From Pseudomonadota bacterium (lineage in GTDB: Bacteria > Pseudomonadota > Gammaproteobacteria > Steroidobacterales > Steroidobacteraceae): a stretch of DNA of 64,000 nucleotides. The notes beneath the pieces were generated by a model, which saw nothing but the letters and a program-made list of their open reading frames with translations, ran no database searches and was not told the DNA's origin. Position 1 is the first letter of the stretch. Each line of letters starts with the position of its first letter. Location of the stretch: positions 1 through 64,000 of the forward strand of contig JAJYFF010000001.1 of assembly GCA_021785405.1 (NCBI GenBank). Direction: 5' to 3'. The position numbers and the translations under genes were made by a program. Below are positions 4,446-63,623 of the stretch, piece by piece.

Positions 4446-6191
4446 TCAATCCAGCGTGACGCTGTTGACTTCCTCGAGGCTCGTCAAACCGTCCATCACC
4501 TTCTGCAAGCCCGCGCGGCGCAGGTTCCACACCCCGTCCTTCGCCGCCTGGTCCGCGATGTGCATCGCACCACCGCCTTCCATGATGATCCGGCCGACCG
4601 CATCGGTCACCGGCATCACTTGATAGATGCCGGTGCGGCCCTTGTAGCCGTCGATGCACTGGCCGCAGCCGACCGCCTTGTAGACGCGGATGCCGCGCGC
4701 GATGTCGGCCTCCTCGAAGCCTTCGCGCCGCAGCGCCTCCGCGGGCACGTCGATCGGCTGCTTGCAATGGATGCAGAGCTTGCGCGCGAGGCGTTGCGCG
4801 ATGATCAGGCTCACCGAGGTCGCGATCGCGTACGGCTTCACGCCCATGTCGACCAGCCGCGTCAGCGTCTGCGGCGCGTCGTTGGTGTGCAGGGTCGAGA
4901 GCACGAGGTGGCCGGTCTGCGCCGCTTTCAGCGCGATCTCCGCGGTCTCGAGGTCGCGGATCTCGCCGACCATGATCACGTCCGGATCCTGGCGCAGGAA
5001 CGCGCGCAGCGCGGCCGCGAAAGTGAGGCCGACCTTCGGGTTCACGTTGACCTGGTTGACGCCGGGCAGGTTGATCTCGGCCGGATCCTCGGCGGTCGAG
5101 ATGTTGCAATCCTCGGTGTTCAGGATGTTGAGGCCGGTGTACAGCGAGACGGTCTTGCCGCTCCCGGTCGGGCCGGTCACGAGGATCATGCCCTGCGGCT
5201 TCGCGAGGTACTTGAGGTACAGGTCGCGTTGCGGCTTCTCGTAGCCCAGCGCGTCGATCCCGAGCATCGCGCTGGACGGGTCGAGGATGCGGGCGACGAC
5301 CTTCTCGCCGAACAGGGTCGGGCAGGTGCTCACGCGAAAGTCGATCGCGCGGTTCTTCGACAGACGCATCTTGATGCGCCCGTCCTGCGGCACGCGCCGC
5401 TCGGCGATGTCGAGCCGCGACATCACCTTCAGGCGCGCGACGATCTTCGGCGCGAGCTGCACCGGCGGCAGCGCGACTTCCTTCAGCACGCCGTCGAGCC
5501 GGCTGCGGATCCGGAAGGTCTTCTCGTAGGGTTCGAAATGCACGTCGGACGCGCCCTTCTTGATCGCGTCCAGCAGGATCTTGTTCACGAAGCGGACGAT
5601 CGGCGCGTCCTCGACGTCGTCGCGCCCGAGCGCGTCGCCGTTGACCTCGTCATCGCCGCCGGTGACTTCGAGGTTCTCCAGGTCGAAGTCGTCGTCGGTG
5701 AGGTGCGGCATCACCGATTCGGCCTGCTCGATCGCCTTGTCGACCGCCTTCTGCAGCTTGTCGTCCTCGACGACGACGAACTCGATCACCATCGAGGTCT
5801 GGAAGCGGATCTCGTCGAGTGCGTGCAGGTTCGTCGGATCGGCGACCGCGAGGAACAGCCGCTTGCCGCGCTTCATCAGCGGCATCACACGGTGTTTCTG
5901 CAAGAGCTTGTCGCTGACCAGCCGGAACGCGTCCGGGTCCGGGACGACCGCGTCGAGGTCGAGCAGCGGGACGCCGAACTCGTTCGACGCCGAGATCGCG
6001 ATGTCGCGCGCGCTCGCGAGGCTCGTGGTGACGAGCTGGGTCACCAGGCTCACGCGCTTTTCCTTCGCGCGCGTGATCGCATCGTGCATCGCCGACTCCT
6101 CGAGGAGCCCGTCCTGCACCAGGCGTTGCGCGAGACCGCTGAAGGCGGAGCGCGAGCCGCTGCCCATCGATGCCAATGCGTTGTCGTTCAT
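4446..6191 (-). CDS. pilB: Type IV-A pilus assembly ATPase PilB
   Basis: GPTGSGKTVSLYTGL Walker A, GEIRDLETAEIALKAAQTGHLVLSTLHTNDA; start MNDNALASMGSG. Confidence 0.96.
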   Translation of the reverse strand: MNDNALASMGSGSRSAFSGLAQRLVQDGLLEESAMHDAITRAKEKRVSLVTQLVTTSLASARDIAISASNEFGVPLLDLDAVVPDPDAFRLVSDKLLQKHRVMPLMKRGKRLFLAVADPTNLHALDEIRFQTSMVIEFVVVEDDKLQKAVDKAIEQAESVMPHLTDDDFDLENLEVTGGDDEVNGDALGRDDVEDAPIVRFVNKILLDAIKKGASDVHFEPYEKTFRIRSRLDGVLKEVALPPVQLAPKIVARLKVMSRLDIAERRVPQDGRIKMRLSKNRAIDFRVSTCPTLFGEKVVARILDPSSAMLGIDALGYEKPQRDLYLKYLAKPQGMILVTGPTGSGKTVSLYTGLNILNTEDCNISTAEDPAEINLPGVNQVNVNPKVGLTFAAALRAFLRQDPDVIMVGEIRDLETAEIALKAAQTGHLVLSTLHTNDAPQTLTRLVDMGVKPYAIATSVSLIIAQRLARKLCIHCKQPIDVPAEALRREGFEEADIARGIRVYKAVGCGQCIDGYKGRTGIYQVMPVTDAVGRIIMEGGGAMHIADQAAKDGVWNLRRAGLQKVMDGLTSLEEVNSVTLD

Positions 6192-31743: not shown

Positions 31744-32301
31744 CTATTTCGACGGATGACGCCCGGGCGCTCCGGCGCCGGCGTGGCGATCGGGAGGCGA
31801 GGTCGTGGTCGCGCGCGCATCCGGATCGGTGCTCGGCTGCGCGTCGAGCGCGAGGCTAGACCCGGCGGACGCGGCGGCGGTCGCTTGCGGACCGTGCGTC
31901 CCGTCGCGCGTGTGCTCACCGCCGGTCGCGTGCGTCGCGCCGCGCGGGCGGGCGCCTGCGACGGCTTGAGCCGCGGTCGCCGTCGCCGCGAGTGCGTTCG
32001 CCGACCGGTTGGCCGCGGTCGCGGACCCGCGACCGCGGGCGTCGCTCGCGATGCGGCTGCCCAGGGCCCGGTCGGCGCCGACGCGGCTGCCGGTCGAGCC
32101 GGTGCCACTGAAACGGGCATCACCGAAGCCGGTGGCACCGAAACCGGCGTTACCGAAACCGGCGGCACCGGCGCCGGTGAGCGCGCCGGACAGCCCGCCC
32201 ATCGCACCGAGACCGCCGCCGAAGCCACGAGCGTGCGCCGCCGCGCTGCACGCGATCACGGTGACCGCGGTGGCGGAGGCGATCCAGAATTTCGTTTGCA
32301 T
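31744..32301 (-). CDS. Secreted Gly/Ala-rich low-complexity protein
   Basis: N-terminal signal MQTKFWIASATAVTVIACSAAAHA followed by 5-residue repeats AGFGN/AGFGA/TGFGD; own promoter-like motif upstream. Confidence 0.6.
   Translation of the reverse strand: MQTKFWIASATAVTVIACSAAAHARGFGGGLGAMGGLSGALTGAGAAGFGNAGFGATGFGDARFSGTGSTGSRVGADRALGSRIASDARGRGSATAANRSANALAATATAAQAVAGARPRGATHATGGEHTRDGTHGPQATAAASAGSSLALDAQPSTDPDARATTTSPPDRHAGAGAPGRHPSK
32101..32180. repeat. Degenerate 15-bp tandem repeat within Gly-rich gene
   Basis: Repeated (a)ccgaaaccggcg/ggyacc units encoding G-F-G-x-x. Confidence 0.7.
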
Positions 32302-32349
32302 GGTGTTGCTCCGATGTGACCGCGGACCTTCCGCGGGCTCCATCGGTCA

Positions 32350-32376
32350 TACGATCGGCGCGGCGGGTTTCTTCCC
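32350..32376 (-). promoter_or_regulatory. Candidate ECF sigma promoter of the Gly-rich protein gene
   Basis: Minus strand GGGAAGAAACCCGCCGCGCCGATCGTA: GGAA-N18-CGTA, same layout as motifs at 33839 and 35126. Confidence 0.65.
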
Positions 32377-32386
32377 GACCCGCTGC

Positions 32387-33694
32387 TCAGCGGGCGCCGA
32401 GCAGGCCGTAGCCGTAGATCGGATCCCAGCCCCGCGCGCCGAGGTCGACTGCGCGCGCGATCAACGCGGCGCGCGCCGTGGCCGCGGCGCGTGGGTTCGG
32501 CGCGTCCATCAACGCGCCGAACAGGGCGGCGACCGTCGGCGCCGCGAACGAGGTACCGCGAGCGACGCTCGTGCCACCGCCGACCGTGGCGACCGGTACG
32601 CCGGCACCCAGGGCGGCGAACGTGACCTGCGGACCGCGTTCCGCCTCGAGCAGCACGCGCCCCCGGGCGTCGACGCCGGTGACGCCGACGACCTGCGGAT
32701 AGGCGGCGGGGTACAGCGGCGGCGCCGCCGGTCCGTCGTTGCCGACGGCCGCGACGATCACGTAGCCTTTCGCGAGCAGCGCCGCGATCACCTGGGCGAG
32801 CAGTCGGTTCTTCGGGCCGACGAGGCTCACGTTGATCACCGGCACGCGATGGCGCGCGAGCCAGGCGAGCGCGGCGATCAGCGACTCGGCCGAACCACCG
32901 GTCGGCATGCCGCAATACACGTCGGCGACGTACAGGTCGGCCGGCGCACCGCGCACCAGCAGCGACGCGACCGCGGTGCCGTGCGCCGCGGGGCGGGTCG
33001 CCGCGCCAAAGCCCCGGGTGTGCACGATCGAGCGGCGGAACACCGGGGCGGACGCATCGATCCCGGTGTCGATGAGACCCAGTTTCGGCAAGCGACGCAC
33101 GGCGCGCGCGTTCGCGCTGGCGCCGCGCGCGGCGACGGCCCCGGCCGGCGTACCGCTGGTGAAATAGATCTGATCGTAGTCGTACGTGCCTTCCGGCACC
33201 GCGGCTCGCAGCGTTCGCAGGGATCTTCGCAGCGACCAATGCGGCGGGACCGCGAGCGCGACGACGTCCAACCCCAGGTCGGCCATCGGGTGGTCGCGAA
33301 TCACCGTGAATCCGAGCGCCGTTGCCCGCGCCCGCGCCGCGCTCGTTGGAAACGTCGCCACGATCTCGTGGCGCACGACGGGATCGCCGTCGGGATCGGC
33401 TTCGACGAGATCGCCGTGCGTGCGCAACAGCCGCCGGATCGCGGCTCGGCGCTGCCCCGTCAGTCGCCGCAGGGTGTCTTGATCGAGCGCATCGAGCAGG
33501 CCGGGGCCGCGGTGACCGAAGTCCGCTGGGACGTGATCGAGGCCGAGGCCGAGGCCGAGGCCGAGGCCTGGACCCCCGCCCATGCCGAGTCCGAAGCCCG
33601 CGCTGGGCATGCGCGCCGCCAGGCGACTCTGAGCGTGCGCCGGCAGGATCAATACCGACGAGAGCACCAGCGCCGCTGCCCGCCACCGTGTCAT
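32387..33694 (-). CDS. Secreted S8 (subtilisin) family serine peptidase
   Basis: Signal peptide MTRWRAAALVLSSVLILPAHAQ; catalytic triad motifs LIDTGID, AAHGTAVAS, RGTSFAAPTVAAL. Confidence 0.88.
   Translation of the reverse strand: MTRWRAAALVLSSVLILPAHAQSRLAARMPSAGFGLGMGGGPGLGLGLGLGLDHVPADFGHRGPGLLDALDQDTLRRLTGQRRAAIRRLLRTHGDLVEADPDGDPVVRHEIVATFPTSAARARATALGFTVIRDHPMADLGLDVVALAVPPHWSLRRSLRTLRAAVPEGTYDYDQIYFTSGTPAGAVAARGASANARAVRRLPKLGLIDTGIDASAPVFRRSIVHTRGFGAATRPAAHGTAVASLLVRGAPADLYVADVYCGMPTGGSAESLIAALAWLARHRVPVINVSLVGPKNRLLAQVIAALLAKGYVIVAAVGNDGPAAPPLYPAAYPQVVGVTGVDARGRVLLEAERGPQVTFAALGAGVPVATVGGGTSVARGTSFAAPTVAALFGALMDAPNPRAAATARAALIARAVDLGARGWDPIYGYGLLGAR
33541..33568. repeat. 6-bp tandem repeat (GGCCGA, about 4.7 copies) in the S8 peptidase prodomain
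   Basis: ggccga x4 + ggcc, encoding GLGLGLGLGL on the minus strand. Confidence 0.9.
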
Positions 33695-33838
33695 CCGTTC
33701 GATCCCTCCAGCCCGCCAGGGCATGGCCACCGCCGCCATGATAGCTCGCGGGTCCGGCCCGGTTCGCCGCCTACGTCACAGACCGGTTGCACCCGGCGTC
33801 GCGGCCGTGGGTAAATCGGCGGCGGTCGCGCAGGTGTC

Positions 33839-33865
33839 GGGAAGAAAATCTCCGGTGCAGACGTC
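33839..33865 (+). promoter_or_regulatory. Candidate autoregulated ECF sigma promoter
   Basis: GGGAAGAAAATCTCCGGTGCAGACGTC: GGAA-N18-CGTC immediately upstream of the ECF sigma gene. Confidence 0.65.
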
Positions 33866-33871
33866 TACACG

Positions 33872-34357
33872 ATGATGACGAACGGGACGACGGAAAACGT
33901 CCAGGGGGAGATCGCGTCGTTGTTGCCGCGGTTGCGGCGGTTCGCGCGTTCGTTGACACGCAACGTGCACGACGCCGACGACGTCGTGCAGATCGCGGTG
34001 GAGCGGGCGCTGACGCACATTGCGCAGCGGCGGTGCGACATGCGCCTGGACGGCTGGCTGTTCAAGATCGTGAGAAACGCCTGGATCGACGAGATTCGCT
34101 TCCGCAAGCGGCGCGACGAGGTCTTCCTCGCCGAGGACACCGCGTCCGCGGAGGCCGGCGGCCAGTTGGACGATGCGCTGTCGATTCGCGCGGCCCTGTC
34201 GCGACTCCCGCCAGAGCAGCGGCTCGCGGTGAGCCTGGTGCTCGTCGAGGGTCTGTCGTATCAGGAGGCTGCCGACGTGCTGGACGTGCCGATCGGCACG
34301 CTGACGAGCCGCCTCGCCCGCGCGCGGCAGGCGTTGCAGGCCGCATTGCAAGCCTAA
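33872..34357 (+). CDS. ECF-type RNA polymerase sigma factor
   Basis: DADDVVQIAVERAL...RLDGWLFKIVRNAWIDEIRFRKRR (region 2), LPPEQRLAVSLVLVEGLSYQEAADVLDVPIGTLTSRLARARQAL (region 4). Confidence 0.92.
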   Translation: MMTNGTTENVQGEIASLLPRLRRFARSLTRNVHDADDVVQIAVERALTHIAQRRCDMRLDGWLFKIVRNAWIDEIRFRKRRDEVFLAEDTASAEAGGQLDDALSIRAALSRLPPEQRLAVSLVLVEGLSYQEAADVLDVPIGTLTSRLARARQALQAALQA

Positions 34358-34369
34358 GGAGGGACCCGC

Positions 34370-35119
34370 ATGCAGATCACCGCCGAACTCTTGATGGCCT
34401 ATGCCGACGGCGAACTCGACGCGGCGGCGGCCGCGGCCGTCGAAGCGGCGATGCGTGACGATGCGGGCCTCGCCGCGCAAGTCGCCGAGCATCGCGCGCT
34501 GCGTGCCCGGCTGCAGGCCGCGTTCGCCGGGGACTTGCTCGAGCCGGTGCCCGGGCGACTCCTCGAGGCGGCGCGGCGCACGCCGGCGGCGGGCGTATCG
34601 CCCGCGGGGGCGGCTGCGCGGGCGCACCGCCGGTGGTGGCGCTCGCCGCTGCCCCTCGCGGCCGCGGCGAGCCTCGTGCTCAGCGTCGGGATCGGCCTGG
34701 TCGTGTGGCATGCCTCCGGCCGACTGCTGCACCGGACCGCGCACGGCACGCCGGTCGCCAGCGGTCGCCTGGCGCATGCGCTGTCGCATGACCTCTCGGG
34801 TCCGGGCGGGACCGGCGGCGTCGACGTGATCCTGAGTTTCGTCGACCGATCGGGCGAGTATTGCCGGGCGTTTCGCATCGCGGGTCGCGTGCCGCGGAGC
34901 GGGGTCGCGTGTCGGGGCGCTGCGCAGTGGCGCATCGCGGCCCTGGCGCGAGCGCCCGGCGAACCGGGCCGGGAGTCCGGTTATCGGACGGCCGGTTCGA
35001 GCCTGCCGCCCGCGGTGCTGCAGGCCATTCAGTCGCGTATCGTGGGTCAGCCGCTCGACCGTGCGGGCGAGCGGGCCGCCCGCGCACGGGACTGGGCGCC
35101 CCGTCACGCCGATCTGTGA
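34370..35119 (+). CDS. Membrane anti-sigma factor
   Basis: Follows sigma gene; N-terminal ELLMAYADGELDAAAAAAVEAAM (zinc-finger-like anti-sigma helix), single TM about residues 90-110, C-terminal exported domain. Confidence 0.8.
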   Translation: MQITAELLMAYADGELDAAAAAAVEAAMRDDAGLAAQVAEHRALRARLQAAFAGDLLEPVPGRLLEAARRTPAAGVSPAGAAARAHRRWWRSPLPLAAAASLVLSVGIGLVVWHASGRLLHRTAHGTPVASGRLAHALSHDLSGPGGTGGVDVILSFVDRSGEYCRAFRIAGRVPRSGVACRGAAQWRIAALARAPGEPGRESGYRTAGSSLPPAVLQAIQSRIVGQPLDRAGERAARARDWAPRHADL

Positions 35120-35125
35120 CCGAAT

Positions 35126-35152
35126 GGGAAGAAAATGCGCTGGCCGATCGTC
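35126..35152 (+). promoter_or_regulatory. Candidate ECF sigma promoter of the DUF4382 gene
   Basis: GGGAAGAAAATGCGCTGGCCGATCGTC: GGAA-N18-CGTC, 40 nt before the start codon. Confidence 0.65.
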
Positions 35153-35191: not shown

Positions 35192-36139
35192 ATGTTCAGC
35201 GCGTCAAAACGCATCTTCCGGCTCGGCCTGCTGATCGCGTCCAGTTGGACCTTGGCCGCCTGCGGTGGCTCGGGCAGCGGCAGCGGCCAGATGTCGCTAT
35301 CGGTCGCCGATGCGCCGGTCGACGGCGCGACCTCGGTCGTGGTCGAGTTCACCGGTGTCGAGCTGATGCAGAGCAACGGCAATCCGGTCGACATCAATTT
35401 CGCGCAACCCAAGTTCATCGATCTGCTCAACCAGAGCAACACCGCCTCGGCGCAGTTGTTCAACCAGCCGATCCCGGCCGGCTCCTACAGTTCGATCCGC
35501 CTGATCGTTCTCGCGGACGGCGACCCGAGCCACTCCTCGATCACGCTGCAGGGTGCTTCCGGCCCCACGGGGTTGCTGATCCCGAGCGGCGCGCAGACGG
35601 GCCTGAAGCTCGTCTCCGGCTTCGACGTGAGCTCGAGCGGCGTCGTCGACTACACGATCGATTTCGATCTGCGCAAGTCGATCACCTGTCCGAACGGCCA
35701 GACGAGCTGCTTCCTGCAGCCCGCGCTGCGCCTGGTCGACAACACCACCGTCGGCAACATCCAGGGAACGGTGTCCCCGGTGCTGCTCACCGGCACGACG
35801 ACGGTGCCGTGTCCGGCGCCGGCGGTCTACCTGTACAGCAGCGCATCGCCGACCGCGATGAGCCCGCTGCAGGGCAACTACAACCAGAACTCCGGCAATA
35901 CGCAGGCGAGTGTCAATTCGCCGGTGCCGGTGACCTCGAAGGCGCCCATCCTCGACACGACGAGCGCCAATTATGGGTATTACCAGTTCACTTTCCTGCC
36001 GCCGGGCACCTACACGGTCGCTTACACCTGCGACGCCGACCTCGACACGAGCACGGCCACGACGCCGATGACCTTCAGTCCGGTGACCGCCAACGTGAGC
36101 GTCGTGGCGACCCAGACCACGACCGTGAATTTCCCGTAG
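35192..36139 (+). CDS. DUF4382 domain-containing lipoprotein
   Basis: Lipobox LAAC; GQMSLSVADAPVDGATSVVVEFTGVEL typical of DUF4382. Confidence 0.82.
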   Translation: MFSASKRIFRLGLLIASSWTLAACGGSGSGSGQMSLSVADAPVDGATSVVVEFTGVELMQSNGNPVDINFAQPKFIDLLNQSNTASAQLFNQPIPAGSYSSIRLIVLADGDPSHSSITLQGASGPTGLLIPSGAQTGLKLVSGFDVSSSGVVDYTIDFDLRKSITCPNGQTSCFLQPALRLVDNTTVGNIQGTVSPVLLTGTTTVPCPAPAVYLYSSASPTAMSPLQGNYNQNSGNTQASVNSPVPVTSKAPILDTTSANYGYYQFTFLPPGTYTVAYTCDADLDTSTATTPMTFSPVTANVSVVATQTTTVNFP

Positions 36140-63374: not shown

Positions 63375-63623
63375 ATGATGTTGATTTTGACGAGACGGAT
63401 CGGCGAGACCTTGATGATTGGTGAAGAAGTGACCGTCACGGTGCTCGGCGTCAAAGGAAATCAGGTGCGTATCGGCGTGAACGCGCCCAAGGACGTCGCG
63501 GTGCACCGCGAAGAGATCTTCGAGCGCATCAAGCGCGAGGAGCAAGGCGGGGCGTCGAGTCATCCGGACGGTCACGGAGACGACCAGTCGGCCCGACCGG
63601 CGCTCAAACTCGGCGGTCGTTGA
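63375..63623 (+). CDS. csrA: Carbon storage regulator CsrA with extended C-terminus
   Basis: [51 protein letters not shown]. Confidence 0.96.

Follow-up and report, generated by a model that had tools for sequence, protein, structure and literature searches.

Results

Genes and promoter-like sites of the locus

Within the 64,000-nt stretch of DNA analysed here (the window), an ECF sigma factor gene and its neighbours lie in the order glycine-rich (Gly-rich) secreted protein (-), P2, subtilase (-), P1, sigma factor (+), anti-sigma factor (+), P3 and DUF4382 lipoprotein (+), where P1, P2 and P3 are promoter-like sites that share one motif. The features are listed below with their supporting evidence in brackets.

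31744..32301, - strand: Gly-rich secreted protein, 185 aa, predicted target of P2 (sequence; orthologues with the same layout)
32318..32338, - strand: stem-loop in the 5′ leader of the Gly-rich mRNA, GCCCGCGG-AAGGT-CCGCGGTC (covariation)
32350..32376, - strand: P2, predicted ECF promoter of the Gly-rich gene (GGGAAGAAA-N14-CGTA, 10 nt past the S8 stop codon)
32387..33739, - strand: secreted subtilase (peptidase S8), divergent from the sigma gene (Pfam Peptidase_S8, 3.9e-21)
33839..33865, + strand: P1, predicted ECF promoter of the sigma/anti-sigma operon (GGGAAGAAA-N14-CGTC, then TA)
33872..34357, + strand: ECF sigma factor, 161 aa (Pfam Sigma70_r2, 7e-14, and Sigma70_r4_2, 2e-15; NCBIfam; orthologues)
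34370..35119, + strand: anti-sigma factor, 249 aa (NF052375, 3.8e-12, below the curated cut-off; zf-HC2, 1.3e-4, weak)
35126..35152, + strand: P3, predicted ECF promoter of the DUF4382 lipoprotein gene (directly past the anti-sigma stop codon)
35192..36139, + strand: DUF4382 lipoprotein (Pfam DUF4382, 8.5e-28; orthologues)
63378-63533, + strand: csrA, near the right end of the window (PF02599, 6.2e-24)

The motif is confined to the sigma locus

A preliminary description of the window had given the three site sequences with the coordinates and strands listed here and had correctly counted 18 nt from GGAA to CGT at each; its headline pattern with a 15-nt spacer, GGGAAGAAA-N15-CGTM, does not occur anywhere in the window, the true spacer being N14. 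Written as GGGAAGAAA-N14-CGTM, the pattern has exactly three matches in the window compared to none in 100 dinucleotide shuffles. The genome scan proposed in that description (G000; 2,923,224 bases in 133 contigs, about 96% complete) returned the same three sites only, so that matches are not randomly placed and all lie at one locus, and the reversed control pattern gave none. The pattern GGAAGAAA-N14-CGTMT with one mismatch allowed likewise found only these three genomic sites (control, 0). No further regulon members were obtained at one mismatch in this genome, and matches in relatives stayed at background level. What had been termed a regulon thus holds for the sharing of one motif by three sites, with a scope of a single locus and not of a genome-wide set. 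The leading G of GGGAAG falls outside the conserved motif, and T stands there at most sites in relatives from the genus.

P1 and the sigma gene are conserved together within the genus

The sigma protein contains only σ2 and σ4 domains (Sigma70_r2 at residues 15-81 and Sigma70_r4_2 at 104-155) joined by a linker of under 50 residues, the architecture that defines group IV, and a GGAA -35/CGT -10 promoter before its own operon, likewise a property of this group, is present in sequence as P1. The gene occurs in nine other genomes of the genus, and in all ten (the window genome included) it is preceded by P1 in the form nGGAnnAAA-N14-CGTC with the same 18-nt spacing, usually as TGGAAGAAA-N14-CGTCTA. 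In the window the sigma ATG lies 6 nt past CGTC (4 nt past CGTCTA), and in the genus orthologues it lies 4-6 nt beyond the 6-nt -10 hexamer; given this proximity, and with transcription starting at the usual ECF distance, the sigma mRNA is predicted to be leaderless. Several genus genomes (L007-L013) also carry a TACAAT-like σ70 -10 hexamer ~10 nt upstream of the P1 GGAA, which suggests a housekeeping promoter for basal expression.

A motif scan of 23 genus genomes, with the reversed pattern as control, yielded 19 matches in 12 genomes (control, 0): 16 at sigma loci, two at remnants of such loci and one at an unrelated position (G010). In one remnant (G002, L074), the locus has lost its sigma gene and most of its anti-sigma gene and keeps P3, DUF4382 and part of S8. 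The other (G020, L069) is a decaying locus in which an intact P2 motif is followed by a frame-disrupted Gly-rich gene, in a genome with no sigma match. Judging from these two genomes, targets left without the sigma factor appear to decay or stand alone. The earlier reading of the sites as ECF promoters, and of the sigma factor as autoregulated, gains support from this comparison, in which motif, spacing and position before the sigma gene are all kept.

The sites could also be genuine ECF promoters that are read by a different ECF sigma factor, with the local one reading something else, and related proteobacterial genomes do encode several ECF sigma factors of similar general type. We consider this very improbable, since the presence and the decay of the site go along with those of the sigma gene, sigma-less genus genomes lack matches save for G010, G020 and G002, and ECF operons that include a cognate anti-sigma factor are as a rule autoregulated (PMC8103513). 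We infer that the local sigma factor transcribes from these sites.

Subtilase and predicted promoter targets

The catalytic residues of the subtilase (D224, H253 and S397) are invariant in an alignment of 10 orthologues. The reverse strand upstream of S8 was considered as the site of an ECF promoter for this gene, and none is present there in the genus.

The Gly-rich protein has a signal peptide followed by GLGGG-type repeats and has no match in Pfam or NCBIfam. Across the genus, P2 lies just past or overlapping the S8 stop codon, its -10 reads CGTATC/G, and downstream of it are a 45-50-nt leader with a Shine-Dalgarno (SD) sequence and a signal-peptide protein rich in GLGGG. This constant position of P2 before a secreted Gly-rich gene in orthologous loci argues for the Gly-rich gene as a target of the sigma factor, as first proposed.

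The proposal that the DUF4382 lipoprotein gene is a second target was borne out in part: P3 is kept before DUF4382 in the sigma-less G002, and the association is lineage-specific and not core, as DUF4382 stands beside the sigma locus only in the closest relatives of the window. A longer DUF4382 paralogue (G000:C11, about 4809-6053, - strand) is conserved in relatives, and the upstream regions of DUF4382 paralogues that were read carry no P3-like promoter. DUF4382 is nearly absent from the open-access literature searched, and the locus suggests a regulatory context for it.

A two-cysteine anti-sigma factor

The anti-sigma gene begins 12 nt downstream of the sigma gene in a conserved order, and its product is the predicted co-transcribed cognate, with an N-terminal helical sigma-binding region, a predicted transmembrane segment and a predicted periplasmic domain. 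The HxxxCxxC signature of ZAS proteins is absent: the window protein has no cysteine in its N-terminal domain, and the alignment shows none conserved there. Two cysteines of the C-terminal domain, C165 and C181, lie in adjacent predicted strands and are invariant in nine orthologues, and every sphingomonad or other family member that was inspected has a cysteine pair 13-16 residues apart. We infer a redox- or ligand-sensing role for this domain. The AlphaFold model of the protein is poor (mean pLDDT 65), and a PDB search with this low-confidence model gave no structural match.

A covarying hairpin in the P2 leader

In the window the hairpin of the P2 leader is located ~19 nt downstream of the P2 -10 and 27 nt upstream of the Gly-rich ATG. 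The hairpin shared by P2 leaders of the family has 8 bp in its stem and 5 nt in its loop, and its centre is ~19-24 nt downstream of the -10 and ~27 nt upstream of the ATG. Among 19 leaders, 89% of cells were paired compared to 81% in shuffles (0/500 as high), and 12 cells had changed on both sides compared to 3 in shuffles (0/500), with slid controls at 32-59% paired. Adding seven more sequences (26 leaders), each placed at its best-pairing position, which favours pairing somewhat, gave an observed pairing above all 20,000 permutations. The hairpin has no match in Rfam; it may protect the 5′ end or act in translational control. Furthermore, GGA stands at the top of the hairpin in most leaders and again at the SD sequence ~18 nt later; in the window copy the GGA of the loop is base-paired, and several genera lack it. 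Control of the P2 leader by CsrA, the gene for which lies in the window, is possible.

The locus recurs beyond the genus

A profile search with the sigma factor recovered orthologues across the family and order as well as in other classes of the phylum. Of 19 additional loci from the family and order, 18 have P1 with the same spacing together with a divergent S8 gene and an anti-sigma gene, and P2 follows S8 and precedes a secreted G/L-rich protein in the great majority of these loci and also in sphingomonads. The protein downstream of P2 is again a signal-peptide protein, with an 'AQ(L/I/V)LGG..GGLGG' sequence, sometimes as GGAAGAAT. Other genera of the family, and Sphingomonadaceae as well, therefore show the subtilase/sigma/anti-sigma/Gly-rich layout with P1 and P2, and named Sphingomonas and Novosphingobium strains carry the circuit. 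In Sphingomonas parapaucimobilis (NZ_CP155749) and Novosphingobium sp. EMRT-2 (NZ_CP039697), both P1 and P2 are present and the annotated order is hypothetical protein, S8 family serine peptidase, RNA polymerase sigma factor and anti-sigma or zf-HC2 protein; S. hankookensis has S8, sigma factor, anti-sigma factor and P1.

The separate conservation of P1 and P2 in distant genera also bears on whether the three window copies are a recent duplication of a single upstream region with no function. GGGAAGAAA is identical in all three, the non-conserved first G included, as such reuse of sequence would produce, but the flanks and the N14 spacers differ among the copies and each promoter has its own -10 preference within the genus (CGTCTA for P1 versus CGTATC/G for P2), which makes this explanation exceedingly improbable.

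Two variations on the layout were seen. An extra copy of the promoter motif lies near the locus in L165-L168, before a conserved secreted protein of ~113 residues (downstream of the anti-sigma gene in L166-L168 and beyond S8 in L165), and in L171 and L172, which have no recognised S8, a divergent ECF promoter precedes a secreted protein made largely of GNGGGNGN repeats.

A palindromic form of the predicted sigma promoter in sphingomonads

The most surprising element of the system is the form that P1 takes in a sphingomonad-like family (f61), whose anti-sigma factor matches Sphingomonas and Novosphingobium records. Here the sigma promoter is symmetric, with GGAnnAAA-N14-CGT on both strands of the same 32 bp, and takes the form GGATGAAACG-N12-CGTTTCATCC. 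The corresponding pattern GGAWKAAACG-N12-CGTTTMWTCC occurs in 36 of 151 f61 genomes (29 of 96 genera), once each and never twice (control, 0). Its position was examined at 20 loci and is in every case the interval between the divergent S8 and sigma genes, with an S8 ATG usually 29-36 nt beyond it. P1 of the window itself lacks this symmetry, the mark of a bidirectional promoter, which is seen in sphingomonads and also in G211 (L161), a member of the window's own family. Many sphingomonad sigma genes (L180-L199) have no ATG near the expected start, where CTG, TTG or GTG seem likely.

Use in two directions is the simplest reading of this symmetry, because a one-way promoter would not need TTTMWTCC beyond CG, and the reverse strand of the palindromic P1 is accordingly the predicted promoter of the sphingomonad subtilase. 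We therefore favour, with some reserve, a widespread ECF circuit in which the whole promoter (-35 and -10) is palindromic, such that a single 32-bp element per genome would fire towards sigma/anti-sigma one way and towards the subtilase the other, with mutually exclusive binding, and in which the window would hold an ancestral or alternative one-way form.

The main alternative to a two-way promoter is that the palindrome is the site of a dimeric repressor or activator, and GGGAAGAAA-N14-CGTM more generally an operator for another DNA-binding regulator. The sphingomonad arms GGATGAAACG and CGTTTCATCC are indeed inverted repeats with centres 22 bp, or about two helical turns, apart. The window site, however, is not palindromic, the 18-nt spacing is exact in palindromic and non-palindromic versions alike, and start codons lie at promoter-like distances; moreover, every exact copy in the genus adjoins an ECF sigma gene or a locus remnant, save that in G010, and the conserved core of the locus contains no other recognisable regulator gene. 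For the motif as a whole we judge an operator to be quite unlikely.

Bidirectional promoters in bacteria have been traced to symmetry of the -10 element (Warman and colleagues; PMC12825309), and the likeness is that a short symmetric DNA can engage RNA polymerase in two orientations. Whereas those promoters share a symmetric -10, the sphingomonad palindrome is a complete ECF promoter, -35 plus -10, in which each arm would serve as the -35 one way and as the -10 region the other way; the terms 'extracytoplasmic' and 'alternative sigma' are absent from the main text of that paper. Should the palindrome indeed fire in both directions, it would provide a clear example from nature of an entire ECF promoter that specifies two directions, and the production of a protease would be tied to that of its regulator.

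A probable self-contained sigma circuit and its relation to known systems

Taken together, the locus is very probably a self-contained, autoregulated ECF sigma circuit comprising hold by the anti-sigma factor, release by a signal, firing of P1, P2 and P3, and a subtilase within the module, as read from sequence comparison. The anti-sigma factor would keep the sigma factor at the inner membrane until a signal from outside the cytoplasm frees it, possibly via the two-cysteine periplasmic domain and/or proteolysis. RNA polymerase with the freed sigma factor would then start at P1, yielding sigma and anti-sigma factor and hence both positive feedback and reset; at P2, yielding the Gly-rich secreted protein; and at P3, yielding the DUF4382 lipoprotein. 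The subtilase would be the protease of the module, with the secreted product or the anti-sigma factor as its probable substrate. A motif first picked out by eye thereby leads to the prediction of an envelope or secretion circuit that is widely conserved and open to experimental test.

The circuit resembles group IV ECF systems with a membrane anti-sigma factor in having σ2 and σ4 only, a short linker, the anti-sigma gene directly downstream and a GGAA/CGT autopromoter. It differs from autoregulated systems of that group in a regulon confined to a single locus, in the constant presence of a divergent subtilase and a Gly-rich secreted protein, in an anti-sigma factor without obvious zinc ligands and, within the genus, in a sigma mRNA that is predicted to be leaderless. 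The sphingomonad copies are also similar in their GGA/CGTT style to promoters of the general stress sigma factor EcfG, the canonical form of which has AAC at -35 and CGTT at -10 (PMC8103513). EcfG, however, is characterised by a phyR/nepR neighbourhood and a NepR-type anti-sigma factor, whereas here a membrane anti-sigma factor and S8 adjoin the sigma gene, and the annotated neighbours on three sphingomonad plasmids include no recognisable phyR or nepR; furthermore, EcfG controls a large regulon, whereas the sphingomonad system has one palindromic promoter copy per genome. A literature search found no paper on the subtilase/sigma/anti-sigma/Gly-rich gene set. The NaCl-induced ECF sigma and anti-sigma pair Swit_3836/3837 of Sphingomonas wittichii (PMC3238334) could be the same system as the window locus.
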